The position numbers were made by a program, and so were the translations under genes. A stretch of 20,342 nucleotides of DNA, taken from positions 1 through 20,342 of IMG/VR virus record IMGVR_UViG_3300032293_002516. One strand, given 5' to 3'. The number at the start of each line of letters is the position of its first letter. Positions within the stretch are counted from its first letter, which is position 1. The notes beneath the pieces were generated by a model. The model had not been told where the DNA came from. It searched no databases and saw nothing but the letters and a program-made list of their open reading frames with translations. Below are positions 1 through 17,527 of this stretch, one piece after another. This DNA comes from a virus.

Positions 1-242
1 TGATTTCCTCTAATCCAAATTATATTAGTTTCATTAGACATTGTCAAAAGTTTTGAAATAACTTTAGTATGTTTTTTCTTCCATTTACTTCCTCTATTTA
101 ATGCCCAAGCATCAACTATATCACCATTTAATACTAAAGTATCACACGGATGTTGTTCTAAAAATTCTAAAAACTCATTACATTTACTATCTTTAGTCCC
201 TAAATGTAAATCAGAAACAATAACATATTGATATTTTTTCAT
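1..242 (-). CDS. LpxH-like calcineurin-fold metallophosphoesterase (3' truncated by window edge)
   Basis: About 80 N-terminal residues are visible, reading from an ATG at 242 leftward off the window. The motifs are those of the calcineurin-like metallophosphoesterase fold: S-D-L-H-L-G near residue 10 (first metal-binding Asp/His), N-G-D-I-V-D near residue 40 (bridging Asp), and R-G-N followed by a codon beginning CA, fitting the G-N-H motif. The spacing and the D-A-W after N-G-D-I-V resemble UDP-2,3-diacylglucosamine hydrolase (LpxH)-type enzymes, which hydrolyse a pyrophosphate in lipid A synthesis, but other substrates are possible. Its ATG overlaps the stop of the upstream glycosyltransferase gene as ATGA (239-242), so the two are probably translationally coupled. 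The fold is secure; the substrate is inference. Confidence 0.8.
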   Translation of the reverse strand, partial: MKKYQYVIVSDLHLGTKDSKCNEFLEFLEQHPCDTLVLNGDIVDAWALNRGSKWKKKHTKVISKLLTMSNETNIIWIRGN

Positions 243-940
243 ATCCAATAATTGTGGTCTTTTTTAAAAAAATCGGGATTATTTTTATTTAACATAGAAA
301 GAATCATCATTTTCATCATATACCAAAGACCTTTTTTCCTTAACCTTCTATCTGTTGTATAAACTTTATTTTTCGATATTGCAATCTTATATGGAGATAC
401 TTTGTTACTTAAGTCATAATCTTCTGCAAACAAAAAATCACTATTAAAACCACCAAGTTCAAAAAATTTATTACGATTAAATAACATAAATCCGCCTAAC
501 ACGAATGGTGAGTGGTATAAAAACCAATTTCTAAAAAATTCAAAAATTGGATATGTGTAAAAATATTTTCCTTCACATCTAAATCTTGTTGTAACTAAAT
601 CCAAGTTGTGATTGTCTATTATTTGAAGGGTTTCTAATAACGTATTTTTATCTGTTAAAAATATATCTGCATCCAAAAATAAAACGTATTTTGTTTCCGA
701 TAAAATCGCCCCATTATTTCTAGCAATCGATGGTATTCCTCCTTGAGTAAATTCTATTTGAATATTTTTATAATTTTTAGAAAGGACTTCTTCTTTTGTA
801 TTATCGGTGGAACTATCACAAATTATAATTTTTGTTCCTGAAATATATTTTTGATTGTTAAGTAAACCTAAAGTTAGATTTATAATTTCAGATTCATTTT
901 TACAAGGGATAACGATTGTTAATAATTCTTTTATATTCAT
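239..940 (-). CDS. Family 2 glycosyltransferase (GT-A fold)
   Basis: A 233-aa protein with the GT2 signature. An N-terminal nucleotide-binding strand contains V-I-P-C-K-N-E (residues 10-16), followed by C-D-S-S-T-D-N-T near 41-48, A-R-N-N-G near 73-77, and the metal-binding D-A-D in F-L-D-A-D-I-F (residues 88-94). A late R-R-L-R-K-K-G segment matches the conserved basic region of the family. I see no membrane helix, so it is probably a cytosolic enzyme acting on a lipid-linked or protein acceptor. I chose the ATG at 940 over a TTG at 955: the sequence between them contains a TATTTATC element and the family's first strand starts right after residue 5. It is coupled to the downstream phosphoesterase by an ATGA overlap. 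It could modify host surface glycans or virion proteins; the sequence does not decide. Confidence 0.88.
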   Translation of the reverse strand: MNIKELLTIVIPCKNESEIINLTLGLLNNQKYISGTKIIICDSSTDNTKEEVLSKNYKNIQIEFTQGGIPSIARNNGAILSETKYVLFLDADIFLTDKNTLLETLQIIDNHNLDLVTTRFRCEGKYFYTYPIFEFFRNWFLYHSPFVLGGFMLFNRNKFFELGGFNSDFLFAEDYDLSNKVSPYKIAISKNKVYTTDRRLRKKGLWYMMKMMILSMLNKNNPDFFKKDHNYWI

Positions 941-944
941 CAAA

Positions 945-952
945 GATAAATA
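945..952 (-). promoter_or_regulatory. TATTTAT-type element, 4 nt before the glycosyltransferase start
   Basis: On the minus strand this reads TATTTATC, then TTTG, then ATG. The direction matches the gene it precedes. If it is a -10 element the transcript would be leaderless or nearly so. Confidence 0.4.
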
Positions 953-994
953 CAAAAAAAAATATCATCACATTTTATTAAATTATTAAATTTT

Positions 995-1019
995 AAAAGG
1001 GTCCCATTGGGACCCTTTT
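995..1019 (-). terminator. Intrinsic terminator after the tmRNA gene
   Basis: Perfect stem GGGTCCC / GGGACCC (999-1005 with 1009-1015), extended by A/T pairs, with a 3-nt loop and a T-run on the minus strand. It begins directly after the encoded CCA end of the tmRNA, so it probably defines the precursor's 3' end. Because the stem is flanked by A's and T's it could also work on the + strand. Confidence 0.85.
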
Positions 1020-1413
1020 TGGTGGAGATGGCGGGAATCGAACCCGCGTCTTGCTCATTTTGACAATCAGTGACTACACGTTTATTACAACATTGTTTCT
1101 CAATGTTCCGAAATATCAGGTTTGATGTTTGTGAGAAACCTACCTGAAAACAACTTGGTCTCAGAATTATTTTAAGGGAGCTCTGACCTGTGACCCCCAT
1201 GACGGACTTCTGTTCCTGAGTATATGTCCTAACCGACTCGTAGTTGTTCTCTACTAATTAAGCAGCAACAACAGCAGCTTCTCTAGTCAAACCAAGAGCA
1301 GCAAGCTTAGCAAAAGTATTGCCATTTATTGTTTTAAATCAGTTTTTAAGGAGTTAACTCAGCTCCTACGTGCCACCAACCCCCAACAATGCCAATCGAT
1401 ACCTGTCATCCCC
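1020..1413 (-). ncRNA. ssrA: tmRNA (transfer-messenger RNA)
   Basis: About 394 nt. The 5' end GGGGATG pairs with CATCTCC at the 3' end to form a 7-bp acceptor stem with one G-U pair, followed by an encoded A-CCA ending at 1020. The T arm is GCGGG-TTCGATT-CCCGC, and a D-like GGTATCGATTGG follows the 5' acceptor strand. A tag reading frame (1258-1323) sits between pseudoknot-like segments, for example an AGGAG/CTCCT pair upstream of the resume site. tmRNA with SmpB rescues ribosomes stalled on broken mRNA and adds a degradation tag. Phage-encoded tmRNAs are known in large phages. This one is single-piece and complete, with a promoter-like element upstream and a terminator at its 3' end. No smpB is visible in the window, so host SmpB would be needed. 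Confidence 0.94.
1258..1323 (-). other. tmRNA tag-peptide reading frame (21 codons plus TAA)
   Basis: Resume codon GGC is preceded by an A-rich stretch ending CAATAAAT. The encoded peptide starts G-N-T-F-A-K-L-A-A-L and ends T-R-E-A-A-V-V-A-A, then TAA. The terminal A-A is the ClpXP-type degron; the length and V-V-A-A end differ from the short A-L-A-A tags I know from Bacteroidota. The exact resume codon is inferred from the frame. Confidence 0.75.
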
Positions 1414-1432
1414 ATAAATTAAAGAACTGTTG

Positions 1433-1463
1433 TAAAGATAAGAATAAATATTAAATTTTCAAA
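1433..1463 (-). promoter_or_regulatory. Bacteroidota-type promoter for the tmRNA
   Basis: On the minus strand TTTG (1463-1460), a 19-nt spacer, then TATCTTTA (1440-1433). This is one mismatch from the TAnnTTTG -7 element at the usual spacing. The mature tmRNA 5' end lies 19 nt downstream, leaving room for a short leader removed by RNase P. Confidence 0.55.
1443..1450 (-). promoter_or_regulatory. TATTTATT element inside the tmRNA promoter
   Basis: Minus-strand TATTTATT lies within the spacer of the host-type promoter, 29 nt upstream of the mature tmRNA 5' end. The tmRNA could therefore be read from two overlapping promoter types. Confidence 0.35.
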
Positions 1464-1472
1464 CAAAAAAAC

Positions 1473-1480
1473 TATTTATA
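1473..1480 (+). promoter_or_regulatory. TATTTATA element before the 611-aa gene
   Basis: Exact TATTTATA ending 8 nt before the ATG at 1489. It lies back to back with the divergent tmRNA promoter elements. Confidence 0.45.
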
Positions 1481-1488
1481 AACATTAT

Positions 1489-3324
1489 ATGAAAAGAACC
1501 ATAATCATTGAAGGTAAAAAAGAAGATATTGCTAAAAAACTCAAACAAAAATTTGAGTATGACGGTAGATTTATTGATAGAGTTTTAAGTACTGACCCAA
1601 CAGGGTATAAGTATGTTGATTATATTGGTAGAAAAATAGAAGATATAATACCAAGATTAACAAGTAAAGTTGGAGGTCTTAACGTACAACAATCAGAGGC
1701 TTTGTTAGATTTATTTGGTGTTGTAATTCCTTGGTTTAATAATAATAGTGATAAGATTGGAGATGATGATATTTGGAAAGCAGATACGATATATAGAAAT
1801 AGAATTGGATTAAATGTTCCAAACATAAATGGTATTGCAGATGCCCCTAAAGATATTAACGCATATGAAGACCCTGAATTCATAAAGGATTTAATGAACA
1901 TCATAGACGGTAGAAAAAGTGAAAGGGAAAAAGAGAAAGAAATAAAATCTCAAGCCGAAAAACTTTATGAAGATGATGATGTTTTGGTTATTAGACCAAA
2001 ATCACATTTGGCGTCTTGTTATTATGGTGCAAACACTAAATGGTGTACCACAACAAAGGAATCTCCATCTTATTTTGAAAAATATGTAAGAAACGGAAAA
2101 TTATATTATTTCATCAATAAAAAAACTGGATTGAAAAATGCTCTTTACGTTGATAATGATAGAGATGTAAAAGTATTTGATGCAAAAGATAATGAAATAT
2201 TATTAAATGATTTTAGAGAAAGTTTTCCATCACAAGATGCCCTTATTGATGATTTAACAGGAATGACACATTTGATTAAAGCACTTAGAAAATTTTCTAA
2301 GGGTCAAATTACTGTAAGAGAGCTTGAAGAATCGGACCCTGCAATATATGATGTTAAAGTTAAAGAACCATTAGGTTCAAGTATTATAACAATTAACTTT
2401 GAAGATGACGATGAGTTTTTTAAAGCTTTGGATTTAGACGAAAATGATGTTTGGTTTGCAAAAGTAATAACCTCGTATTATGGTAATTACGAATTTATGG
2501 ATTCTTATACCGTAGACGAAGATTTTAAGGAGGGATATATAATTTATGATGATTTAAATGATGAAAATTTAGATAAGCTTCAAAAAATATCCTCAGTAAT
2601 TTTACCCGAAAAAGAGTTTGATTTAAAAAATGATGACTTTACAAGAGAATTATCAAAAAGATTAGTTGATTTGTTTGAAAAGGAAATGGATTGGATTACT
2701 GGAGATTATCTATCAGAAAAAAATTCTGAAATGACTAAAACTGCAGAAGAATCAATTACTAAAGAAATTAATGGATTATTAGAAGATTTAGGGTTTGTTT
2801 TAGATAGAAGTTATGATTTAGTAAAAACCACTCCAGCAAATTTAATTATGTGGGCGGCTAAATTAAATACACCAAAAACAGACGCGATTTCATTGTTTAA
2901 TCAGATAGTTGAAAACAATGGAAAATCCATAGGTGGATGGTATGATAATTCGTATGATTTCCGAGGTGATGACAATTTTGATAAAGAAAGTTTTAATAGG
3001 ACGGTAGAAAGGAATTTTGATGAAATTTTAGAAAAAATTGAAGACTCTTCTGATTTGGAAGGCGGTGGATTGAAGAATTTTATAGAAATGATGGGTCGAA
3101 TTAAATCTAAATTTAAATTAAATATTTGGTATAAATTACCTAAAGACAAATCAGTTAATTTCAAAATTTCAGGTTTTGATAGAGATAAAATGAAAATTAA
3201 TCTTTTATTAAATAAATCCGATAAAGGTCCTTACAGTGGTAAATCTATAAGTTTAAGTGAAGAAAATTTTTATAAATTGTTATATCAAAAAGAATTATTT
3301 GATATATTTGATGATTCAGAATAA
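1489..3324 (+). CDS. Large phage protein with G-x-x-T-K-W-C signature, function unknown
   Basis: 611 aa, charged, with no signal peptide or membrane segment. Residues 160-250 contain the most distinctive part: D-V-L-V-I-R-P-K-S near 165-172, then C-Y-Y-G-A-N-T-K-W-C (177-186), then K-L-Y-Y-F-I and a D-N-D-R-D segment. I recall this YG..TKWC arrangement, together with an N-terminal D-P-T-G-x-K-Y near residues 36-42, from uncharacterised proteins of large T4-like marine phages; no function is known to me. The two cysteines nine residues apart could bind a metal or form a redox pair, which is only a guess. The remainder (residues 260-611) is acidic and helical without a recognised domain. It starts 8 nt after a TATTTATA element and is followed after 18 nt by the peptidase gene. 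Confidence 0.85.
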   Translation: MKRTIIIEGKKEDIAKKLKQKFEYDGRFIDRVLSTDPTGYKYVDYIGRKIEDIIPRLTSKVGGLNVQQSEALLDLFGVVIPWFNNNSDKIGDDDIWKADTIYRNRIGLNVPNINGIADAPKDINAYEDPEFIKDLMNIIDGRKSEREKEKEIKSQAEKLYEDDDVLVIRPKSHLASCYYGANTKWCTTTKESPSYFEKYVRNGKLYYFINKKTGLKNALYVDNDRDVKVFDAKDNEILLNDFRESFPSQDALIDDLTGMTHLIKALRKFSKGQITVRELEESDPAIYDVKVKEPLGSSIITINFEDDDEFFKALDLDENDVWFAKVITSYYGNYEFMDSYTVDEDFKEGYIIYDDLNDENLDKLQKISSVILPEKEFDLKNDDFTRELSKRLVDLFEKEMDWITGDYLSEKNSEMTKTAEESITKEINGLLEDLGFVLDRSYDLVKTTPANLIMWAAKLNTPKTDAISLFNQIVENNGKSIGGWYDNSYDFRGDDNFDKESFNRTVERNFDEILEKIEDSSDLEGGGLKNFIEMMGRIKSKFKLNIWYKLPKDKSVNFKISGFDRDKMKINLLLNKSDKGPYSGKSISLSEENFYKLLYQKELFDIFDDSE

Positions 3325-3338
3325 TTTGTCTATTTTTG
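3307..3338 (+). promoter_or_regulatory. Bacteroidota-type promoter for the M20-like peptidase
   Basis: TTTG (3307-3310), a 20-nt spacer, then TATTTTTG (3331-3338), which fits TAnnTTTG exactly. The ATG follows 5 nt after the element, so a leaderless transcript is predicted. It overlaps the end of the upstream gene. Confidence 0.5.
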
Positions 3339-3342
3339 CAGT

Positions 3343-4188
3343 ATGACAAAAAATGTGGAATTTTTAAAAGAAGTTCTTAGTGTTCCAACTAAGACATATA
3401 AAGAAGAAAAAATGGTTTCATTTATTGCCAATTGGTTAATTGACAATAATATTGAATATCATATTGATATTCATAATAACATTTACGCAACCAAACAAGA
3501 ATCAAAAAATTTACCAGAAAATTTTTATTTCCCTTGTGTTATTTCGCACACAGACACTGTTCATGAAATAGACACAATTAATATTCGTGAAGAAAATCTT
3601 CCTAACGCTCAAAAAGAAATAAAATCATCATTAAAGGCATATAATGATTTTGGACAACCTACAGGGATTGGTGGTGATGATAAGTGTGGTGTGTTTGCGT
3701 GTTTAACTCTATTAAAAGAATTACCAAATCTAAAGGCGGCTTTTTTTGTTTCTGAAGAAACAGGATGCCACGGTTCTAAAAAGGCCGATTCTGGTTTTTT
3801 TGAAAATGTTGGTTATGCAATACAGTTTGACGCTCCTGAAAATTGGATGATTACTGAAAAATGTTTTGGTCAAATTCTATTTGATAGAGATTCAGAATTC
3901 TTTGGTACAGTTAATGAAGTATTAACAGAAGGTATGAATCCATCTGATATGGAATATATGGTTCATCCTTATACTGATGTGTATGCTTTAAGAGGTAAGT
4001 TTGATTTTTCTTGTATTAACTTTTCAATTGGGTACTATGACTACCACACAAGAAATGAATATGTTGTTATTGAAGATGTTTTCAACGGGATTGAAATGGG
4101 TAAAAAAATGATTGAAAAATTAGGAAATAAATTACATTTTAAAAAATCCAAAGAATATAAAGGATATCAGGATAGATATATTTTTTAA
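3343..4188 (+). CDS. Compact M20/M28-like zinc peptidase (peptidase T-like)
   Basis: 281 aa with the full metal and catalytic set of the M20/M28/M42 co-catalytic zinc peptidases, in order: S-H-T-D-T-V (His69, catalytic Asp71), G-I-G-G-D-D-K (bridging Asp112), S-E-E-T-G (general base and ligand Glu138/139), F-D-A (Asp163) and Y-H-T-R-N-E (His235). It most resembles peptidase T-type exopeptidases, which remove N-terminal residues from small peptides. At 281 aa it is clearly shorter than the usual 370-410, the shortfall falling in the lid/dimerisation domain. It has no signal peptide, so it is cytosolic. It may finish degradation of peptides made by Clp proteases, or act on a peptide signal. Family confidence is high; substrate is unknown. 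Confidence 0.85.
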   Translation: MTKNVEFLKEVLSVPTKTYKEEKMVSFIANWLIDNNIEYHIDIHNNIYATKQESKNLPENFYFPCVISHTDTVHEIDTINIREENLPNAQKEIKSSLKAYNDFGQPTGIGGDDKCGVFACLTLLKELPNLKAAFFVSEETGCHGSKKADSGFFENVGYAIQFDAPENWMITEKCFGQILFDRDSEFFGTVNEVLTEGMNPSDMEYMVHPYTDVYALRGKFDFSCINFSIGYYDYHTRNEYVVIEDVFNGIEMGKKMIEKLGNKLHFKKSKEYKGYQDRYIF

Positions 4189-4201
4189 AAAAAAATAATA
4201 A

Positions 4202-4230
4202 AAAAAAGGGAGACAATGTCTCCCTTTTTT
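4202..4230. terminator. Bidirectional terminator between peptidase and ClpC-like genes
   Basis: Perfect stem GGGAGAC / GTCTCCC (4208-4214 with 4218-4224) with an AAT loop, preceded by an A-run and followed by six T's. It serves the converging genes on both strands; the minus gene stops 2 nt beyond it. Confidence 0.88.
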
Positions 4231-4231
4231 G

Positions 4232-6250
4232 TTACCTACCCTTTTTCACTAATTTAACTTCATCACCATCAACCTTAATGTTGTAGGTTTTACCCTCAAC
4301 CATTTTACCAGTCAATACTTCTTCAGAAAGAAGGTCTTCCACTTTGTCTTGAATTGCTCTTTTCAAAGGACGAGCTCCATAGAGTTCATCAAACCCAACT
4401 TTAGCCAAATAATCAACCAATGTTTCGTCATAAGTGATTTTATATTTCATATCTGCAAGACGAGCTGTTAGTTTATTAAGTTCAATCTCAGTAATCTTCT
4501 TAATGTTTTCTTGAGACAATGAATTGAAAACAATTGTATCGTCAATACGGTTGATAAATTCAGGTGAAAAGAAATTTTTCATTTCCTTCATCAAAATTTG
4601 TCTTTTAGATTCTTCATTACTGTATGAATTACTTGAAAAACCAATACCTGTTCCGAAGTCCTGTAATTTCTTAACACCCAAATTAGATGTAAGAATAATC
4701 AAAGTATTTTTGAAGTTGATTTTACGACCCAAACTATCTGTCACATGACCATCATCCAAAATCTGAAGAAGGATTGTAAACACGTCTTTATGCGCTTTTT
4801 CTACTTCATCAAATAAGATTACAGAATATGGTTTGTTTTTAACTTTTTCAGTCAACATTCCACCCTCTTCATATCCAACATAACCTGGAGGAGCCCCCAC
4901 CAATTTGGATACAGTGTGTTTTTCCTGATATTCGCTCATATCGACACGGATAAGTGAATCTTCACTACCAAACATTTCCTTAGCCAATTGTTTTGCCAAG
5001 TGAGTTTTACCGACACCTGTAGAACCCAAGAATACAAATGAACCGATTGGACGATTAGGGTCTTTGATACCTAATCTGTTTCTCTTAATTGATTTAGCAA
5101 TTTTTACAACCGCCTCATCCTGACCAATGACTTTACCCATAATCTCTTTATCCAAATTAAGGAGTGCTTTTGTGTCATCCACACTCATTTTATTAACAGG
5201 GATTTTTGTCATATTGGAAACAACATCATAAACATCTTCCAAAGAAATAACTTGTTTATTGTTTTCCATATCTTGTTCAAACTTCTTCTTTTCTGTATCC
5301 AATTTATCAAGAAGTTTCTTTTCTTTATCCCTCAATTGAGCAGCTTGTTCATAGTTTTGTTTCTTAACAACTTCCATCTTTTGATTCTTAATATCATTAG
5401 CCGCTTTTTTAAGAACTTCAATTGATTCAGGAATCTTCAGTTCGGTCTGCATACGAGCACCAACTTCATCCAAAATATCAAATGCTTTGTCAGGGAATTC
5501 ACGGTCAGTAATGTACCTATCTGCGAGTTTAACACAAGTTTCAATTACTTCATCGGAATATGAAACTTTATGATAAGATTCGTATTTTTCACGAACATTT
5601 TTCAAAATCTGAATTGTTTCCGCTACGGTAGATGGTTCAACCATAACCTTTTGAAACCTACGTTCCAACGCTCCGTCTTTTTCGATATTTTTACGGAATT
5701 CATCCAAAGTTGTTGCACCAATTACTTGGAGTTCGCCACGAGAAAGTGCGGGTTTGAAAATATTAGAACCATCCATAGAACCTGATGAATTACCTGAACC
5801 AACAAGTGTGTGGATTTCATCAATAAACACAATAATGTTTGGGTTTGATTGAAGTTCTTCTATAATAACTTTCATTCTTTCTTCAAATTGTCCACGGTAT
5901 TTTGTTCCCGCAACAACAGATGTAAGGTCTAAATTAACAATACGTTTATCAACCAAATTTTTAGGACATTCCCCATTAACAATTTTTATTGCCAAACCTT
6001 CAACAATTGCGGTTTTACCACAACCAGGTTCACCAATAATAATCGGGTTATTCTTTTTCCTACGAGATAGAATTTGAGCAATTCTTAAAATCTCACGGTC
6101 TCTACCAATTACAGGGTCCAATTTACCCTGTTCTGCTAGTTTATTCAAATCACGACTGAAATTATCCAAGACAGGAGTATTACTGTCAGGGGATTGTTTT
6201 TGCTTTTTACTCATCATTTTTTCGTCATCGTCCATTAAATCGTTATGCAT
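4232..6250 (-). CDS. clpC: ClpC-like double AAA+ protein unfoldase lacking the N domain
   Basis: 672 aa. The first AAA+ module has Walker A G-E-P-G-C-G-K-T (73-80), Walker B V-F-I-D-E (141-145) and E-R-R-F (196-199). A UVR-type insert (about 288-320, including Y-E-Q-A-A-Q-L-R) follows. The second module has Walker A G-S-T-G-V-G-K-T (409-416) and Walker B I-L-F-D-E-V-E-K (478-485). The UVR segment and a G-I-G-F loop at 535-538, at the place where ClpC and ClpA carry the ClpP-docking tripeptide, argue for ClpC rather than the disaggregase ClpB. The adaptor-binding Clp_N domain (about 140 residues) is missing; only some 30 residues precede the first module. It would unfold proteins for host ClpP, as no clpP is visible here. 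ATGs also occur at residues 6, 12 and 13, so the exact start is uncertain. It is divergent from hsp20. Confidence 0.92.
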   Translation of the reverse strand: MHNDLMDDDEKMMSKKQKQSPDSNTPVLDNFSRDLNKLAEQGKLDPVIGRDREILRIAQILSRRKKNNPIIIGEPGCGKTAIVEGLAIKIVNGECPKNLVDKRIVNLDLTSVVAGTKYRGQFEERMKVIIEELQSNPNIIVFIDEIHTLVGSGNSSGSMDGSNIFKPALSRGELQVIGATTLDEFRKNIEKDGALERRFQKVMVEPSTVAETIQILKNVREKYESYHKVSYSDEVIETCVKLADRYITDREFPDKAFDILDEVGARMQTELKIPESIEVLKKAANDIKNQKMEVVKKQNYEQAAQLRDKEKKLLDKLDTEKKKFEQDMENNKQVISLEDVYDVVSNMTKIPVNKMSVDDTKALLNLDKEIMGKVIGQDEAVVKIAKSIKRNRLGIKDPNRPIGSFVFLGSTGVGKTHLAKQLAKEMFGSEDSLIRVDMSEYQEKHTVSKLVGAPPGYVGYEEGGMLTEKVKNKPYSVILFDEVEKAHKDVFTILLQILDDGHVTDSLGRKINFKNTLIILTSNLGVKKLQDFGTGIGFSSNSYSNEESKRQILMKEMKNFFSPEFINRIDDTIVFNSLSQENIKKITEIELNKLTARLADMKYKITYDETLVDYLAKVGFDELYGARPLKRAIQDKVEDLLSEEVLTGKMVEGKTYNIKVDGDEVKLVKKGR

Positions 6251-6265
6251 AGTTATTAATTTTTA

Positions 6266-6296
6266 CAAATATGTATCAAAATGCGTACACTACAAA
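6266..6296 (-). promoter_or_regulatory. Bacteroidota-type promoter for the ClpC-like gene
   Basis: Minus strand: TTTG (6296-6293), a 19-nt spacer, then CATATTTG (6273-6266), one mismatch from TAnnTTTG. The ATG lies 15 nt further downstream. Two inverted repeats sit just upstream of the -33 element. Confidence 0.5.
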
Positions 6297-6302
6297 ATAT
6301 TT

Positions 6303-6315
6303 TGACATATTGTCA
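6303..6315. promoter_or_regulatory. Operator-like inverted repeat 1 (TGACA-TAT-TGTCA)
   Basis: A perfect 5-bp half-site palindrome with a 3-nt centre, 6 bp upstream of the -33 element of the ClpC-like gene. The size fits a dimeric DNA-binding protein. The regulator is unknown. Confidence 0.45.
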
Positions 6316-6331
6316 GGATATTTTTTTTGAG

Positions 6332-6344
6332 TGTCATTATGACA
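6332..6344. promoter_or_regulatory. Operator-like inverted repeat 2 (TGTCA-TTA-TGACA)
   Basis: A perfect palindrome with the half-sites of repeat 1 in swapped order. The two centres are 29 bp apart, close to three helical turns, so they could be bound on similar faces. Confidence 0.45.
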
Positions 6345-6412
6345 TATGTTTATTAAAAGAACTGAAATAATTACATTACCACCCAAATGGCATCAAAGTT
6401 GATACAATCAAA

Positions 6413-6420
6413 TATAAATA
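6413..6420. promoter_or_regulatory. TATAAATA / TATTTATA element between clpC and hsp20
   Basis: On the + strand it reads TATAAATA, identical to the T4 late-promoter core, ending 29 nt before hsp20. On the minus strand it reads TATTTATA, the form seen elsewhere in the window, 162 nt before the ClpC-like start. Which gene it serves cannot be told from sequence. Confidence 0.4.
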
Positions 6421-6449
6421 ATAAATTTTAAAATAAAAAATTAAAAACT

Positions 6450-6845
6450 ATGATTTACAGAAGTTCGAATTTTAATGATTTGTTTGATTCTTTTTTTAAT
6501 GATAAAAGAAAGGATTACAATTACACTACAGTAATTAAAAATCAGTTAGAAAATGAAAATTATGAAATAAACCACACTAAAGATGGTGCATATCTTTTCT
6601 TTGAAGCTGCTGGTTTTAATAAAACAAATTTGAAAGTAGAAATGGAAAATGGTATTTTACTTATTGAAGGTAAAAGAACCTATAAAATGAATGGGGAAGA
6701 AAAAGTAAAAACTATTTCTAAAGAATTCAAAGTTGGTGATGGATACAATCCTGAAGAAATTGAAGCAACAATCGAAGATGGATTACTTACGGTGTTTGTA
6801 CCAAATTATAAAAAACAAGAAAAGAAAAGGATTAGTATCCTCTAA
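6450..6845 (+). CDS. Small heat-shock protein, Hsp20 / alpha-crystallin family
   Basis: 131 aa, a typical bacterial sHSP length. A short N-terminal arm carries F-N-D-L-F-D-S-F-F (8-16), a usual sHSP oligomerisation feature. The alpha-crystallin domain spans about 37-121 with the hallmark A-x4-G-L-L-T-V-x-V-P (106-118), and the C-terminal I-x-I motif is I-S-I (128-130). These proteins are ATP-independent holdases that keep unfolding proteins soluble for refolding or degradation. Hsp20 genes are known in T4-like cyanophages, where a role in capsid assembly or host stress has been proposed. Here it is divergent from a ClpC-like unfoldase and could share its control region. The leader is A/T-rich with no Shine-Dalgarno sequence. 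Confidence 0.93.
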   Translation: MIYRSSNFNDLFDSFFNDKRKDYNYTTVIKNQLENENYEINHTKDGAYLFFEAAGFNKTNLKVEMENGILLIEGKRTYKMNGEEKVKTISKEFKVGDGYNPEEIEATIEDGLLTVFVPNYKKQEKKRISIL

Positions 6846-9031: not shown

Positions 9032-10282
9032 ATGGGAGATTTAAAACCAATTGGAAGTGAAAAACTCACAGGCCAAGACAAACTAAAAAGAATTATGGAA
9101 ATCGCTAGATTTAAAGAAACGATTCCTAGTACTATAAACGAAACTGCCAAAAAAGAATATTCTGTAAATCTTGCTGATGGTATCAATTATGAAATTTTTA
9201 AAGAAAGACAAGGATATATCATTAAAAAAGTTGTTTCAGAATCAGAAACTGAATATATCGAACCAATGAAAAATAGGAAATATTATTCTTCTTATTCTCA
9301 AGCATTTAAAAGATTAAATCTATTGGCTGGTGAGTTAAATAGATTAAATGAAAATGAGGAAGGTGTTTCTTTATATGGCGAACAAAAAAAGTTTGTTTTA
9401 AAAACTCCAAAACCTGCAGAACCTGCTCCTGAAATGGCAGCTCCTCCGGCACCACCGGCAGCTCCTCCACCAGTTCCTTCTCCTGAACTTCCTCCATCTC
9501 CATTAGGTGGTGATGTTCCACCTTCAGAAGGTGGTGAAGACATGGAACCAATGGGTGATGAGTTAGGAATGGAAGGCGGTGATGAAGATATGGGTGTAGA
9601 AGATATGGGCGGTGAAGAAGGACAAGATATGGAAGAAAAAGTTACCTTCAAGACAATCCAAAAACTAACTGGTAAATTAACTCAAAAAATTAGAACATTA
9701 GATAGTGAAGAAGGAATGACTTCTGAAGATATGAAATATGTTATTAATATGGTTCTTTCATCTTTAGATTTAGGTAGTTTGTCTGAAGAAGATAAAGAAG
9801 ATATTATGTCAAAATTTGAAGACGCTGAAGGAAGAGAAGAAGGTGATGATTTTGGTGGTGATGAAATGGGTGATTTTGGTGGTGATGAAATGGGTGGTGA
9901 AGAGATGCCTGCGGAAGGTGGTGAAGAGATGCCCGTTGAAGGTGAGTTCAGTGAAGGTGGATACGGTGCAATTTTAGACCACATTTTTAGCGAATCAAAA
10001 GTTGATACCGTAATCTCAAAATATTTTGAAATTTCAAAAAAAGAAATTTTAGAAAATAGAAATAAACAAGCTGAAAGACAATCAAAAAAAATTGTTGAAG
10101 TTAAAAGACAAATGAAAGAAGTTGTTAAATTAACAGAAACAATAGAACAAGAATTAGCGTCCAAAAAATTCTTAGAAGAAAATGTTGGAGCTAAAATTGT
10201 TGGAAAAACAAATAAAAATAACTTAGTATTTGAGAACAAAGGTGAACAAGTAAAAATTTCGCCTGAAGGATTATTGTTATGA
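9032..10282 (+). CDS. Acidic, proline/glycine-rich phage protein, probable virion or assembly protein
   Basis: 416 aa. Layout: a folded-looking N-terminal region (1-125) with a Y-E-I-F-K-E-R-Q-G-Y-I-I-K-K strand pair; a Pro/Ala/Glu-rich linker (128-165, e.g. A-P-P-A-P-P-A-A-P-P-P); a Gly/Asp/Glu/Met-rich stretch (165-200); a helical domain (about 205-260, K-T-I-Q-K-L-T-G-K-L-T-Q-K-I-R-T); a second acidic repeat region (269-309); and a charged, coiled-coil-like C-terminal region (320-385). I know no function for it. The acidic helical nature and the position upstream of packaging genes suggest an internal head or core component. It overlaps the next gene by ATGA. Confidence 0.8.
   Translation: MGDLKPIGSEKLTGQDKLKRIMEIARFKETIPSTINETAKKEYSVNLADGINYEIFKERQGYIIKKVVSESETEYIEPMKNRKYYSSYSQAFKRLNLLAGELNRLNENEEGVSLYGEQKKFVLKTPKPAEPAPEMAAPPAPPAAPPPVPSPELPPSPLGGDVPPSEGGEDMEPMGDELGMEGGDEDMGVEDMGGEEGQDMEEKVTFKTIQKLTGKLTQKIRTLDSEEGMTSEDMKYVINMVLSSLDLGSLSEEDKEDIMSKFEDAEGREEGDDFGGDEMGDFGGDEMGGEEMPAEGGEEMPVEGEFSEGGYGAILDHIFSESKVDTVISKYFEISKKEILENRNKQAERQSKKIVEVKRQMKEVVKLTETIEQELASKKFLEENVGAKIVGKTNKNNLVFENKGEQVKISPEGLLL
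9848..9895 (+). repeat. 24-bp tandem duplication in the acidic gene
   Basis: Two adjacent identical 24-nt units encode D-F-G-G-D-E-M-G twice. Shorter G-G-E-E-M-P repeats follow. It is in frame. Confidence 0.85.
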
Positions 10283-11571: not shown

Positions 11572-12876
11572 ATGGCAAAAAAAATTAAAGAACAAGTAGA
11601 TTACGGGAACACACCTGAAAGGATGGACCCAAATTTGGAAAGAAAATTGGCTAATCCTGAAGGATTATATGCAAAAAATCCTGCAATGAAAAAAGGTGTT
11701 GCCGATGTTCAAAGATTAATTAGTAAAAGATTCCAAAAAGTTGCAGACAAATTAAGAGAAGTTACGGGTATTCCTGATTTGAGCTCCAAACAAGTTCAAG
11801 GAATGGTTTACAATGAAATGATGAGGAAACTTCCTAATATAATGAGGATAGAGGCTGCAAACAGAGATGAACTAATTGAATTGGCAAAAGAAGCTTCTTT
11901 AGATGAAGCGGAAGTTCCATCTGATTGGTATCAAATTGAGGCGACGTTAGGTATGCCTGACACATCAAATTTTAGGCTCGAACCTGAAGATGATGAAGAC
12001 GAAGAAGAGGAGGAGGAAGAAAAAGAAAAACCTGAATATCCTTCATTTGATATTGAAGATTTAACTGATGAAGAACAATTAGAACTTGAAAAACACAAAA
12101 GAAATATAATCAATGCTATTATTCAAGGAGCATCAAAAAAGGGACATTACCTTTTTCAAAAACCTGAAGTTAAGGCAAGATTAGATGCAATTGACCCATC
12201 TTTATATAGAGATTATTTGGGTGTTATGGCCATTAATGATTTTCTTTATTTCAGTATGGAACAAATGATTGAAATGATGAGTCAAACAGGTCAAGGTATT
12301 GCAGGTAAGGTTGAATTGGGTGATGCTGATGAGGATGAAGAAGGTGGTGAAGGTGGTGAAGAAGCTCCTGATACTAAAATTATGGCAACAGGTATGATTT
12401 TTCCTATTCTTTGTCATGAAATTATTAAAGGATTAGAAGAGGCAAAAGGAAGACACGGATTACCACAAGAACCAGATATGAGACAAAAAGTTATGGGACA
12501 AACAGATACATTATCTAATGAACCAATGCAATTAAGAATAGGACCTGAAATTGTAGAAAAAATTCGTTTTGCACTTCCTGATGAAATGTTTGATGAAGGT
12601 AATAAGGGTCTAATAAACTGGTTTCATATTTTGCTATACCAAATACCTGCTCAAGAATTCTTAGAAATTATTGGAAATGCAATTTCAGAAGATACGTCAA
12701 AAGTTAAAAAAGCTACCTCAAGATTTGAAGAAATTATGAAAGAAGCTAAAGAAATGAAAGACGAGTTTGAAAATTACAAAGAAGAGAATGGTAGTGATTC
12801 CGATAGTGATGATGAAGATGATGAAGATGACTTAGACGACTTTTTAGGTAGTTTGGGTATATCAAGACCCAAATAA
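11572..12876 (+). CDS. Acidic phage protein preceding the terminase, function unknown
   Basis: 434 aa. The N-terminal 120 residues are helical and basic/acidic mixed (K-K-G-V-A-D-V-Q-R-L-I-S-K-R-F). An almost pure Asp/Glu run follows at 138-152. A second helical domain starts after D-I-E-D-L-T-D-E-E-Q. A Gly/Glu-rich linker near 245-262 leads to a further domain with M-I-F-P-I-L-C-H-E-I-I-K-G-L-E. The C-terminus has a long Ser/Asp/Glu stretch ending D-D-F-L-G-S-L-G-I. It sits 2 nt after the previous gene and 8 nt before the terminase. A small terminase subunit often lies at this position, but the length and acidity do not fit one. A head-core or packaging accessory role is possible but unproven. 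Confidence 0.78.
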   Translation: MAKKIKEQVDYGNTPERMDPNLERKLANPEGLYAKNPAMKKGVADVQRLISKRFQKVADKLREVTGIPDLSSKQVQGMVYNEMMRKLPNIMRIEAANRDELIELAKEASLDEAEVPSDWYQIEATLGMPDTSNFRLEPEDDEDEEEEEEEKEKPEYPSFDIEDLTDEEQLELEKHKRNIINAIIQGASKKGHYLFQKPEVKARLDAIDPSLYRDYLGVMAINDFLYFSMEQMIEMMSQTGQGIAGKVELGDADEDEEGGEGGEEAPDTKIMATGMIFPILCHEIIKGLEEAKGRHGLPQEPDMRQKVMGQTDTLSNEPMQLRIGPEIVEKIRFALPDEMFDEGNKGLINWFHILLYQIPAQEFLEIIGNAISEDTSKVKKATSRFEEIMKEAKEMKDEFENYKEENGSDSDSDDEDDEDDLDDFLGSLGISRPK

Positions 12877-12884
12877 CTATATTT

Positions 12885-14642
12885 GTGACTAAAGAACAAT
12901 TAATTATAGAAGTAACGAAGTGCATGAGGAACACACCTTATGCACTTCGTACTTATTTACAGACATACGATAATACAGTATCAAAATACGTACCGTTAGA
13001 TTTATTTCCTGACCAAGTTTCACTGATTGAAGATTACGACAATTATAATGAAAATATCGCATTGAAATATCGTCAGGCGGGTGTATCAACAGTAACCGCC
13101 GCTTGGGCTTCTAAAAAGTTAGTATTTGCCAAAAAACAAAAACCTGAAAAAATTCTAATTATTGCAAATAAATTAGATACTTCGGTCGAATTTGCAAACA
13201 AAGTTAGAGGATTTACAGAACAATGGCCATCTTGGGTTGGTGTTGGATTTTCAGTAGAAAAAAACTCACAAAGACACTTTAAATTAACTAATGATTGTGA
13301 AGTTAAAGCTGTTGCAACTTCAAAAGACGCACTTAGAGGATATACCCCAACAATATTGATTTTTGATGAGGCTGCGTTCATTGAGGCGGATGATGATTTC
13401 TGGTCTGCTTGTATGGCATCACTTTCTACGGGTGGTAAAGTTATTGTTGTATCAACTCCTAACGGATACGATAGAATTTATTATGAGATTTACGACCAAT
13501 CGTTAAGAGGGATGAATGAATTCAAAATCTCAGAAATGGTTTGGTACAGAGACCCAAGATATACAAGGGATTTGTATATGGTAAAAACCAATGACTTGGT
13601 TCATTATTTGTTAAATAGGGAGGATTATCCTGCCAATGTACTTATTGACTTATCTGTTGAAAATCCATACGAAAGAGACCATGATGTAACTAAAACTTAT
13701 ATTGAACAGGGGTATAAACCTTGTTCTAGTTGGTTTGAAGGAATGGTTAAGAAACTCAAATACGACCGTAGAAAAGTTGCTCAGGAATTGGAATGTAACT
13801 TTTTGGGTTCGGGTGATAACGTATTCGATTCAGAATTGATGCAGAACATAGCTAAGAACCAACTGAGGGAGCCACAAGCTAAACTTATGGGTTCATCCCT
13901 ATGGATTTTCAAAGAACCCGTAAATGGTCACAAATACGTTATGGGTCTTGATGTGTCAAGAGGAGACTCTGAAGATTTCTCAAGTATTCAAATTATTGAC
14001 TTTGACGAAAGGGAACAAGTTTTAGAATACGTTGGGAAAGTTCCACCAGATGTATTGGCTGAAATAGCTTATAAATGGGGTACAATGTATAATGCTTATT
14101 GTGTTATAGATATTACAGGGGGAATGGGTATATCAACCGCAAGGAAATTACAGGAATTACAATACCAAGGTGGGTTATATGTTGATAATATAGACCCCAA
14201 CAATAAGTGGAAATGGGACCCAAAAATGAATGAAAAAATCCCTGGTATTAACTTCAACAACAAAAGAGTTCAAATTATTGCTGCATTTGAAGAAGCCATA
14301 AGACATGAGTTTAAAATATATTCTCATAGAACATATAATGAAATGAATACGTTCATTTATGTTAACGGAAGACCTGACCATCAAAAAGGTCAACACGATG
14401 ACTGTATAATGGGATTATCTATGGCAATCTATGTTGCGGAAAAATCATTCCAATCTTTAACTAAAGTTGTTAATCATACAAAGGCAATGATTAATTCTTG
14501 GTCAACAGTTGTTAATGAGAACAAAAACACGTCAGACTACTTTAATCCCCTAATACCTCAGATGGGGAGACAAAATCCAACTAATCAAGGGCCAACCAAA
14601 GCCGATTATCAAAAATATGGATGGTTATTTGGTGCCAAATAA
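12885..14642 (+). CDS. Terminase large subunit (T4 gp17-like)
   Basis: 585 aa, close to T4 gp17 (610). ATPase domain: adenine/fuel region F-P-D-Q near 41-44, Walker A-like K-Y-R-Q-A-G-V-S-T (61-69), Walker B I-L-I-F-D-E (157-162), and coupling motif V-V-S-T-P-N-G (188-194). C-terminal RNase H-like nuclease: G-L-D-V-S-R-G (Asp356), C-V-I-D-I (Asp409) and G-Q-H-D-D-C (Asp505/506). It powers DNA entry into the prohead and cuts the concatemer. A GTG start at 12885 keeps the N-terminal helix T-K-E-Q-L-I-I-E-V; the next ATG is codon 14. The portal gene follows directly, without tail sheath and tube genes between as in T4. Confidence 0.96.
   Translation: MTKEQLIIEVTKCMRNTPYALRTYLQTYDNTVSKYVPLDLFPDQVSLIEDYDNYNENIALKYRQAGVSTVTAAWASKKLVFAKKQKPEKILIIANKLDTSVEFANKVRGFTEQWPSWVGVGFSVEKNSQRHFKLTNDCEVKAVATSKDALRGYTPTILIFDEAAFIEADDDFWSACMASLSTGGKVIVVSTPNGYDRIYYEIYDQSLRGMNEFKISEMVWYRDPRYTRDLYMVKTNDLVHYLLNREDYPANVLIDLSVENPYERDHDVTKTYIEQGYKPCSSWFEGMVKKLKYDRRKVAQELECNFLGSGDNVFDSELMQNIAKNQLREPQAKLMGSSLWIFKEPVNGHKYVMGLDVSRGDSEDFSSIQIIDFDEREQVLEYVGKVPPDVLAEIAYKWGTMYNAYCVIDITGGMGISTARKLQELQYQGGLYVDNIDPNNKWKWDPKMNEKIPGINFNNKRVQIIAAFEEAIRHEFKIYSHRTYNEMNTFIYVNGRPDHQKGQHDDCIMGLSMAIYVAEKSFQSLTKVVNHTKAMINSWSTVVNENKNTSDYFNPLIPQMGRQNPTNQGPTKADYQKYGWLFGAK
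12915..12950 (+). other. 11-bp perfect inverted repeat at the start of the terminase gene
   Basis: ACGAAGTGCAT (12915-12925) pairs fully with ATGCACTTCGT (12940-12950), with a 14-nt loop. It begins 30 nt after the GTG start. It could be an mRNA hairpin affecting early elongation or a protein-binding site. Confidence 0.6.
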
Positions 14643-16551: not shown

Positions 16552-17250
16552 ATGACATTCGGAAAAATAAAATCCATAATTGAAAACAACTTACTTGAGT
16601 CTTACAAGAATGAAAAAGATTTTAAAAAATCTTTAAGAGAATTTAAACACAATGTTTTGAATGATAAGTCAATGTCAAAGGCTTATTCGGTGTATGACCA
16701 ATTAAGTTCACCACAAGGATTGTCCGAATCAGACGCTAAAGATTATTTAGAAGAAGGTATAAATTTACTACAAAGAATATTACCTACAATTAAACTTCCA
16801 AAAACATTAGATGAAAATTCTGCAAACAAATATTCAGATATTGATACATTAGTGTATACAAATAAAGTTAATATTACAGAAAGAATTCAATGTAAAAAAA
16901 ATATAGTATCTGTTTTAACTTTAAGAAAAGATTCAATAAAAGAATCTATTAACATACCAATTAAATCAATGGTTAATATTGCGAATCAAACTTTAAGAAA
17001 TTATATTGAAACTTTAGATGAAAACTCGAAAAAAGAGTTTTTTCAAATAATATCAGAAGATACAAAATCTTTGGAGTCTAAATTTCAATTAATGAAAGAA
17101 AATACAATAACAAAATTACAAGTTATTTTAGACAAAGAAGATGAAGCAGAATTAAAAAATAAAATTTCTGAAACCATAGATACAATCAGAAAAGAAAAAT
17201 TTGACCAAATAAGTTTTTTAAAGCTTAAAAATTTGGAGGGTTCAATTTAA
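16552..17250 (+). CDS. Prohead-core-region protein, function unknown
   Basis: 232 aa, highly helical and Lys/Glu-rich (F-G-K-I-K-S-I-I-E-N-N-L-L-E-S-Y at the start; a long E-D-T-K-S-L-E-S-K-F-Q-L region near 177-188). No enzyme motif is visible. It lies between the portal and the prohead protease, the place where T4 carries its small core genes 67 and 68, so a role in the scaffolding core is a reasonable inference from gene order. The protein is longer than those T4 proteins and I cannot show homology. Its TAA overlaps the convergent stop of the bS21 gene, leaving no room for a terminator between them. Confidence 0.75.
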   Translation: MTFGKIKSIIENNLLESYKNEKDFKKSLREFKHNVLNDKSMSKAYSVYDQLSSPQGLSESDAKDYLEEGINLLQRILPTIKLPKTLDENSANKYSDIDTLVYTNKVNITERIQCKKNIVSVLTLRKDSIKESINIPIKSMVNIANQTLRNYIETLDENSKKEFFQIISEDTKSLESKFQLMKENTITKLQVILDKEDEAELKNKISETIDTIRKEKFDQISFLKLKNLEGSI

Positions 17251-17432
17251 GATTTTCTAATTTTTTCACTGTGAACTGCCTTTAGAATTTGTGTTCTTTT
17301 TCTAACAGAAGGCTTAGTATATTCTTTTCTATCTTGGAGTAACTGGTTTTGCTTAGTTTTAATAACTTTTGATTTCAAAGTTTTTAAAGCTCTTTCAATA
17401 TTATCTCCTTTTTTAATTTCTACTATTAACAT
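17247..17432 (-). CDS. rpsU: Ribosomal protein bS21
   Basis: 61 aa from the ATG at 17432. A longer reading frame starting at 17477 adds 15 residues foreign to the family and is rejected. It fits the bS21 pattern in Bacteroidota form: N-terminal L-I-V-E-I-K-K-G-D-N-I-E-R-A-L-K-T-L-K (2-20), a central E-Y-T-K-P-S-V-R-K-R (37-46) and a basic helical end. bS21 sits near the anti-Shine-Dalgarno end of 16S rRNA on the small subunit; in Flavobacterium it takes part in hiding that end. Phage-encoded bS21 is known from many uncultivated phages. Here it is antisense within the head-morphogenesis cluster and has a host-type -7 element upstream. It may replace host bS21 to alter initiation (inference). 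Confidence 0.9.
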   Translation of the reverse strand: MLIVEIKKGDNIERALKTLKSKVIKTKQNQLLQDRKEYTKPSVRKRTQILKAVHSEKIRKS

Positions 17433-17438
17433 ATAATA

Positions 17439-17446
17439 CAAATATA
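17439..17446 (-). promoter_or_regulatory. Host-type -7 element for bS21
   Basis: Minus-strand TATATTTG fits TAnnTTTG exactly and ends 6 nt before the bS21 ATG, predicting a leaderless message. I see no good TTTG at -33, so confidence is limited. Confidence 0.42.
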
Positions 17447-17527
17447 TCGATTTAGAATAAAGTTTTTGACATTTCATTAAATATGACTTATTTTTTATGA
17501 AAATAAACGTATTAACAATGAAAATTA

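Follow-up and report, generated by a model that had tools for sequence, protein, structure and literature searches.

Genes and features of the window

The window, that is the whole stretch of DNA analysed here, is a whole virus record of 20,342 bp, i.e. a fragment, and its lineage consists of very large viruses from lakes whose hosts are Bacteroidota. The genes that had been named in the original prediction are all real, and they are given in Table 1 together with the other features of the locus.

Table 1. Positions, strands and basis of the features identified in the window
Feature	Position	Strand	Basis
Terminator-like hairpin GGGTCCCAATGGGACCC-TTTT, immediately 3' of tmRNA	995..1015	-	sequence
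tmRNA (ssrA), one-piece, Bacteroidota type	1020..1413	-	Rfam RF00023, 97.1 bits
Tag reading frame GNTFAKLAALGLTREAAVVAA + UAA; resume codon GGC immediately 3' of UAAAU	1258..1323	-	sequence
Bacteroidota-type promoter TTTG-N19-TATCTTTA, upstream of tmRNA	1433..1463	-	sequence
611-aa protein, PHROG 17056 / 28193, between M20 and tmRNA (in most relatives too)	1489..3324	+	
Short M20-like (PepT-like) zinc peptidase	3343..4188	+	Pfam, PHROG, ligand motifs
ClpC-like unfoldase, N-domain-less	4232..6250	-	PHROG, Pfam, structural relative
Small heat-shock protein (Hsp20)	6450..6845	+	50.7 bits
bS21, between portal and prohead protease	17247..17477, conventional start 17432	-	40.8 bits

The covariance model that detected the tmRNA has a curated cut-off of 47 bits (E 4e-37 for the window). 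Its acceptor stem is GGGGAUG/CAUCUCC with G3.U70, the discriminator is A and CCA is encoded. The RNA is conserved in relatives, where the acceptor stem occurs in many versions with all 7 pairs formed and G3.U70 kept, in a search that favoured paired stems. When the tmRNAs of 24 relatives were aligned and folded with RNAalifold, 30 of 41 pairs had changed on both sides and the second modelled acceptor pair was G.U in 23 of the 24 relatives. The motif TTTG-N17-21-TAnnTTTR was present 5' of the tmRNA in 28 of 55 relatives compared to 0.9 in shuffles. Chromosomal tmRNA of Bacteroidota (e.g. Flavobacterium sp. 9AF, L264) is likewise one-piece with G3.U70 and resumes at GGC, there after TAAAC. SmpB genes were found near the tmRNA in five contigs and most phages of the lineage are without one. 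ARAGORN reported no tmRNA on the window; in relatives it reported five, and although it gave the same tag frame independently in L018 and L044, in the other three the tag was different. Since it fails on the tmRNA of the window and mis-tags three of five relatives, more such genes may have been overlooked.

The ClpC-like protein matches PHROG 4871 with 820 bits. Its best solved relative is S. aureus ClpC, to which it aligns from phage residue 11 over residues 146-802, so that the N-terminal adaptor-binding domain is missing in the phage protein. It has two AAA+ modules (Pfam AAA, AAA_2 and ClpB_D2-small) with KYR and GYVG pore loops, a UVR-like M domain (Pfam UVR 20.9 bits, just below the cut-off of 21.5) and the docking-type tripeptide IGF. 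The claim that it is a ClpC without N domain that keeps a ClpP-docking-type loop thus holds, and every full-length ClpC of the relatives keeps an [I/V/L]GF docking loop as well. In 19 of 20 records it is the single Clp ATPase of the phage.

The M20-like peptidase, a protein of 281 aa, scored 25.3 bits with Pfam Peptidase_M20, just over the cut-off of 24.6, and 124 bits with PHROG 4191 'peptidase'. The zinc-ligand motifs HTDTVH, GGDDK, SEETG, FDAP and YHTR are present in M20 order, and the M20 dimerisation (lid) domain had no match among the Pfam hits. In the window and in 55 of 55 relatives, bS21 lies on the reverse strand among the genes for TerL, portal and prohead protease. Freshwater bS21-encoding Bacteroidota phages, whose genomes reach 331 kb and in which chaperones and a Clp protease were noted, share a reverse-strand bS21 that is flanked by hypothetical genes and has TerL, portal and prohead protease near, and there bS21 has already been proposed to serve translation takeover (PMC9723584). 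As judged from its sequence, the gene order of the window agrees with that of this clade. Reading the block as an anti-phage defence was abandoned, as its PADLOC matches were mostly of the generic ATPase kind.

The tag encoded by the phage tmRNA

The tag frame of the window runs from GGC to UAA, has 21 codons and ends in VAA. Tags of one family of 21-22 residues were found in 58 of 58 relatives in which the tag was readable, and they lie outside the canonical ssrA form of about 8-15 residues ending in (L/V/M)AA. Selection on this tag acts at the level of the peptide: the entropies of the three codon positions are 0.83, 0.62 and 1.23, so that third positions vary most, pN/pS is 0.58 in the tag frame compared to 0.85 and 0.90 in the other two frames, and replacements at many positions are conservative (K/R, I/V/L, E/D). 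A G-L is invariant across the tags of the relatives, and the conserved part, G..K[ML]...GL, is not at the C terminus. When the tag was modelled as an amphipathic helix, the helical moment was below that of shuffles (mean z -1.1), and this reading was given up. To look for tag-like peptides in phage proteins, every ORF of a 321-kb relative was searched with a tag HMM; the matches were all spurious, the best (E 0.008) being in an ORF of 52 aa.

The tags of the hosts are different. Twenty-eight tags were read in Bacteroidota genomes; they have 9-10 residues of the GENNYALAA type, end in [L/M]AA and always have Ala at position -2, whereas in the phage tags, with their other sequence, this position is free and may even be E or K. 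Among 45 distinct phage tags only 7 have the penultimate Ala but 42 have the C-terminal Ala, a few ending in I or S, and most end in a hydrophobic residue followed by Ala. That ClpXP is excluded once the C-terminal LAA is lost was considered, but this claim was dropped, because E. coli ssrA variants ending in LVA or AAV serve as ClpXP degradation tags (PMC9382460). As the phage tags mostly end in a hydrophobic residue and Ala, host ClpXP may still take them.

Linkage of the tmRNA, ClpC and ClpP genes

Of the distinct contigs that carry ClpC and extend at least 6 kb downstream of it, 63 of 63 have tmRNA and M20 after the ClpC gene, and the cluster is therefore more than a chance neighbourhood. 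This linkage inside a single lineage is inherited, and the structural genes of the same block are equally constant. Co-occurrence was therefore rejected as independent evidence, the more so as the parts separate outside the lineage, where they assort independently: LR756502 and LR745206 have ClpC and ClpP and no tmRNA, and KP34-like phages have M20 alone. The Callevirus phages phi38:1 and Calle_1 of Cellulophaga are flavobacterial phages that also have a tmRNA about 1.3 kb from M20, with a long tag frame GNNTNAVNAQIEANMEAVNAILNLEVAVGV, but they are unrelated podoviruses with a different tag sequence and no Clp ATPase. As many as 293 phage records have an M20-like peptidase, among them KP34-like and Vibrio podophages of 43 kb, and of seven M20 phages tested, the tmRNA search stayed below the cut-off in four and a Clp ATPase was absent from six. 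The small heat-shock protein is optional even within the lineage (17 of 74 relatives). The co-occurrence of ssrA, clpC, M20 and rpsU is seen within the lineage but not in most of the M20 phages tested, and one fixed set of genes that includes the small heat-shock protein is not supported.

In close relatives a ClpP gene lies 9-25 kb past the tmRNA, beyond the 20-kb fragment of the window. It was found in 15 of 20, 7 of 10 and 11 of 50 records in three sets, many records of the last set being too short to tell, and a 304-kb relative without it rules out that ClpP is universal in the lineage. The Ser-His-Asp triad is intact in 12 of 12 of these phage ClpPs and the docking-pocket Tyr, which is kept in 20 of 20 host ClpPs, is His in 11 of the 12. 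The docking loop of ClpC is IGF in 23 of 23 contigs that carry ClpP and VGF in 11 of 11 without it, a split that amounts to only one or two transitions on the tree. The window falls in the clade with ClpP (support 98/98). The presence of a phage ClpP in close relatives strengthens the idea of a set of genes leading from ribosome rescue to proteolysis, for which the tmRNA, ClpC and M20 block, the intact docking loop and this ClpP speak; the sporadic small heat-shock protein is not a fixed part of it.

A possible route from stalled ribosomes to a phage protease

An explanation to which we give about an even chance is that these phages encode a trans-translation of their own, in which the tag is private and is probably handled by the phage ClpC together with a phage or host ClpP. 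The tmRNA, derived from a one-piece tmRNA of the Bacteroidota type, would be charged by the host alanyl-tRNA synthetase and delivered by host SmpB, rarely by a phage SmpB, to ribosomes that have stalled on mRNA that is broken or non-stop. The ribosomes would be freed and the chain would end in the phage-specific tag of 21-22 residues instead of the 9-10 residues of the host. This tag is most likely a degron for the phage unfoldase, which has lost the N domain via which hosts regulate ClpC with adaptors, and which would feed a ClpP that is phage-encoded in the sub-lineage of the window and host-encoded in others. The net effect would be that ribosomes are recycled during heavy late translation and that waste chains go to a protease controlled by the phage. 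Against a tie between tag and phage protease stands that the tag is long in sub-lineages that have no phage ClpP as well, and in Callevirus, which has no Clp ATPase. More tentatively, the pathway may be orthogonal, with a private degron that only phage ClpC reads, docked to a phage ClpP whose altered pocket matches it; stalled chains would then escape the quality control of the host, and long private tags would have arisen several times in Bacteroidota phages.

It is also a real possibility that a functional tmRNA is only a neighbour of ClpC and ClpP and keeps ribosomes cycling amid mRNA destruction, that tagged chains go to host ClpXP, and that ClpC(P), M20, the small heat-shock protein and bS21 are separate genes for proteostasis or takeover. 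The separation of the parts in LR756502, LR745206, Callevirus and KP34-like phages fits this, as does the C-terminal Ala that is mostly kept, but it leaves unexplained the doubled length of the tag, its conserved part away from the C terminus and the conservation of the block in all 63 contigs.

That tmRNA, ClpC, M20, the small heat-shock protein and bS21 form a single pathway from host proteins to amino acids is unlikely. The ClpP of close relatives would complete its protease, the PepT-like M20 with its zinc ligands seems fit to trim ClpP peptides, and M20 also lies about 1.3 kb from the tmRNA in the unrelated Callevirus; yet the small heat-shock protein is found in a minority of relatives, M20 is common in phages, most of those tested being without tmRNA or Clp, and bS21 lies in the structural block and not in the clp block. 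Recycling of host proteins had been proposed before as a role of a phage tmRNA, that of phage Melnitz (PMC9004378). Less probable still is that the tag is no degron and stabilises, localises or marks rescued chains, or withholds them from host proteases. The free position -2, the few tags ending in I or S and the unrelated long tags of other phages would agree with it, but the hydrophobic residue and Ala kept at most C termini and the Clp unfoldase that is always adjacent would not. Finally, it is very improbable that the tag region is conserved as RNA structure and not as a translated tag. Local folding for H5 and PK1 within the window predicts a hairpin of the H5 type around the stop codon, which would favour this reading, but the Rfam alignment is poor in this part and the fold was no better than shuffles (z -0.78); the variable third positions and conservative replacements described above also speak against it.

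The explanation with a private tag has a parallel in Mollicutes, where Lon recognises the long ssrA tag of Mesoplasma florum (PMC9382460). There too the longer tag is read as a switch of the recognising protease, but its sequence is different and the switch to Lon followed the loss of ClpXP, whereas the candidate partner in the phage is its own ClpC. In jumbo phages, ClpP and ClpA/ClpX genes were interpreted as anti-host or virion-assembly tools (PMC7824862); no tmRNA is mentioned there, whereas here the ClpC without N domain adjoins the tmRNA in every relative that is sequenced far enough. The literature consulted on such phages mentions Clp and not tmRNA; the text of PMC9723584 has no occurrence of the word and does not mention the tag or the pairing of ClpC with ClpP. 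Phage Melnitz likewise encodes a tmRNA, but one that is two-piece, of alphaproteobacterial type and under a riboswitch, with no Clp partner described in the consulted passages of its report, which also lists tmRNAs for 402 phages (PMC9004378). Such tmRNAs have been listed for years, and a tag that is conserved and replaced offers a direct handle on the question why a phage needs one. Should the phage ClpC indeed read the tag, the virus would have made a switch of protease specificity like that to Lon in Mollicutes, and the tag would be a new orthogonal degron. The virus may thus run a private line of protein disposal inside its host.

A maintained tmRNA with a new tag

The 20,342-bp virus fragment carries a T4-like terminase, a portal and a prohead protease, and the tmRNA, M20-like peptidase (M20), ClpC-like unfoldase, Hsp20 and bS21 of the original prediction were all found where it had placed them (table). 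The window tmRNA, which ARAGORN did not detect, is real and maintained. In relatives, the ClpC-bearing large lake phages of Bacteroidota, ARAGORN reported a tmRNA in only 5 of 9 tried; its tag differed from the frame used here in 3 of these 5 and matched it exactly in contigs L018 and L044. The window acceptor stem has G3.U70 and an encoded CCA. The acceptor stems of relatives diverge (GGGCCCG/CGGGTCC, GGGTCCG/CGGATCC, GGGGAAG/CTTCTCC, others) and retain G3.U70 and pairing, a result that is partly by construction as stem ends were located by a script favouring paired stems. In an independent analysis, RNAalifold predicted 41 pairs from an alignment of 24 tmRNAs; both members varied in 30 of these pairs, and 23 of the 24 sequences had the G.U pair. 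A Bacteroidota-type promoter, TTTG-N17-21-TAnnTTTR, lay 5' of 28 of 55 tmRNAs when 0.9 were expected. In A1, the alignment of relatives' tmRNAs, RNAalifold pairs the resume-codon region UGGC/CGGC (columns 104-107) with a conserved downstream GUCG (columns 226-229) in nearly all relatives, an unusual arrangement, since a resume codon is ordinarily single-stranded.

When read from the resume codon GGC directly 3' of UAAAU, the window tag is GNTFAKLAALGLTREAAVVAA. All 58 relatives with a readable tag have one tag family of 21-22 residues, including three (L019, L025, L058; first residue Asp) that the initial pattern did not catch and that were decoded by inspection; Gly-Leu is invariant and the first residue, Lys6 and the final Ala are nearly so. 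In the tag frame, variability peaks at codon position 3 (entropy 1.23 vs 0.83 and 0.62) and pN/pS is lower than in the other frames, so the tag is under selection as a peptide. A full tmRNA was present in 35 of 36 Bacteroidota genomes holding close ClpC relatives, and the 28 readable tags of Bacteroidota genomes were ordinary ones of 9-10 residues, mostly GENNYALAA. The phage tag is new, and the phage tmRNA is therefore a Bacteroidota-type tmRNA whose tag has been replaced and doubled.

Coordinates of the features discussed
Feature	Sequence	Positions	Strand	Remark
Metallophosphoesterase-like and family 2 glycosyltransferase genes	window	3-955		adjoin tmRNA
tmRNA	window	1020-1413	minus	Rfam 97.1 bits
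611-aa protein of unknown function	window	1489-3324		PHROG 17056/28193; GANTKWCTTT segment
M20	window	3343-4188	plus	
ClpC	window	4232-6250	minus	
Hsp20	window	6450-6845	plus	
bS21	window	17247-17432	minus	
smpB	L249	7979-8416	minus	
GOLLD RNA	L162 (LR756502)	9064-9470		
GOLLD RNA	L163 (LR745206)	12535-12940		
Second tmRNA-like match	L294 (LR756508)	1501-1612		112 nt
tmRNA	L502/L507 (phi38:1)	record 26803-27164		unannotated; cultured crAss-like phage
tmRNA	L498 (Calle_1)	2327-2688		
Two-piece tmRNA	L512 (Bohxovirus)	675-864		RF04321, 70.6 bits

The ClpC-M20-tmRNA block and ClpP

From 106 distinct ClpC contigs collected, block counts were limited to those with enough sequence beyond ClpC. All 63 contigs that extend 6 kb or more past ClpC have both M20 and the tmRNA, and 70 of the 71 that extend 4 kb or more have the tmRNA, whose start lies 2.0-5.6 kb from ClpC. 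bS21 was found in all 55 contigs that could be compared, Hsp20 in 17 of 74. Other genes of the block are equally constant, and therefore the co-occurrence marks a core region and is not by itself a functional link. In L069, L074, L076 and L079 a reversed M20 gene occupies the same syntenic position and its protein is only ~46-49% identical; this is an inversion or replacement in which the peptidase is still kept. The 611-aa protein lies between M20 and the tmRNA in most relatives, though at only ~23-60% identity, and a few relatives (L249, L006, L076, L077, L440) have smpB no more than ~1.5 kb from the tmRNA. The two genes adjoining the window tmRNA are probably for cell-surface sugar modification.

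The alignment of the window unfoldase to S. aureus ClpC begins at residue 146 of the latter, so the adaptor-binding N domain is gone; as predicted, it keeps the docking loop, along with both AAA+ modules and the pore loops. Exactly one Clp ATPase was found in 19 of 20 long relatives, and ClpP in 15 of 20 long records, among them all 309-321-kb ones of that search, and in 7 of another 10 records of the lineage; its usual place is 9-25 kb beyond the tmRNA. In contig 3300019093_000008, a close relative in this genome part, it lies ~18 kb past the tmRNA; the window stops 1 kb past its own, and therefore its ClpP is predicted, not seen. The triad is intact in 12 of 12 phage ClpPs. The docking-pocket tyrosine immediately ahead of the NSPGG-type motif, which we take to be E. 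coli Tyr62, is kept by all 20 main host ClpPs and replaced by His in 11 of the 12 phage ones. The ClpC docking loop is IGF in 23 ClpP-bearing contigs, VGF in 11 contigs that were followed for 23 kb or more beyond the tmRNA and showed no ClpP, and mostly VGF in hosts (65 of 79). These sequences are suggestive of a docking loop that tracks phage ClpP; the correlation is not independent replication, as one or two changes on the ClpC tree suffice to explain the trait; on this tree the window falls inside the ClpP-bearing clade (support 98/98).

Phages outside the lineage

Because none of the virus records has been certified as complete, an absence carries less weight than a presence. LR756502 and LR745206, phages of 630-640 kb, have ClpP and a ClpC that branches within Bacteroidota sequences, and neither has a tmRNA above the Rfam RF00023 curated threshold; a GOLLD RNA (RF02032, 275-287 bits) lies a few kb from ClpC in each. 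The LR756508 tmRNA has a 36-codon frame and is distant from its Clp gene; elsewhere in this phage's sequence there is also a second match, essentially the tRNA-like domain alone, comparable to the TLD-only gene of mycobacteriophage DS6A (PMC4131195). In LR756504 the tmRNA frame has 24 codons, DNVNSFEQSILNELFAPVEMAVAA, and an M20 gene lies ~14 kb away. In Cellulophaga phages phi38:1 and Calle_1 a tmRNA (~87 bits) with a 30-codon tag frame was found ~1.3 kb from an M20 peptidase, and no Clp; ARAGORN starts this tag eight codons too late, and the aligned resume codon gives GNNTNAVNAQIEANMEAVNAILNLEVAVGV. In a mycobacteriophage the tmRNA tag is of an ordinary kind with 12 residues, AAFVDADYAVAA. 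The crAss-like Bohxovirus has a permuted two-piece tmRNA with a 12-residue frame, GNFNVVDYTCVA, after GGC; the Bacteroidota genomes examined have one-piece tmRNAs. A KP34-like phage and a Vibrio podophage with M20-like genes had neither tmRNA nor Clp. Long tags are thus found repeatedly in phages, though not in all, and the parts can occur apart. Among related phages, co-occurrence held for ClpC, M20, tmRNA and bS21, but not for Hsp20, nor outside the lineage.

Proposed trans-translation with a private tag

Phages of this kind, which infect Bacteroidota, reach 331 kb and encode bS21 in reverse orientation within the structural genes, have been described as carrying chaperones and a Clp protease; the main text does not mention tmRNA (PMC9723584). 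For a second lineage of aquatic jumbo phages, predicted to infect Bacteroidota, ClpA but no tmRNA was reported (PMC12619734), and tmRNA and SmpB have been reported in huge phages in general (PMC7162821). For phage Melnitz, recycling of host proteins through the phage tmRNA has been suggested (PMC9004378), and action of phage ClpP on the host has been suggested (PMC7824862). In the main texts of freely accessible papers, we came across no account of a conserved private tag or its pairing with a phage Clp protease.

M20 is PepT-like and by its sequence has the full set of zinc ligands, and it could process the peptides that ClpP releases; its occurrence in many other phages, however, speaks for an independent function. 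The best supported reading is phage trans-translation with a private tag, where we infer charging of the tmRNA, use of SmpB and recognition, and the tag would probably feed the adjacent phage ClpC together with phage or host ClpP.
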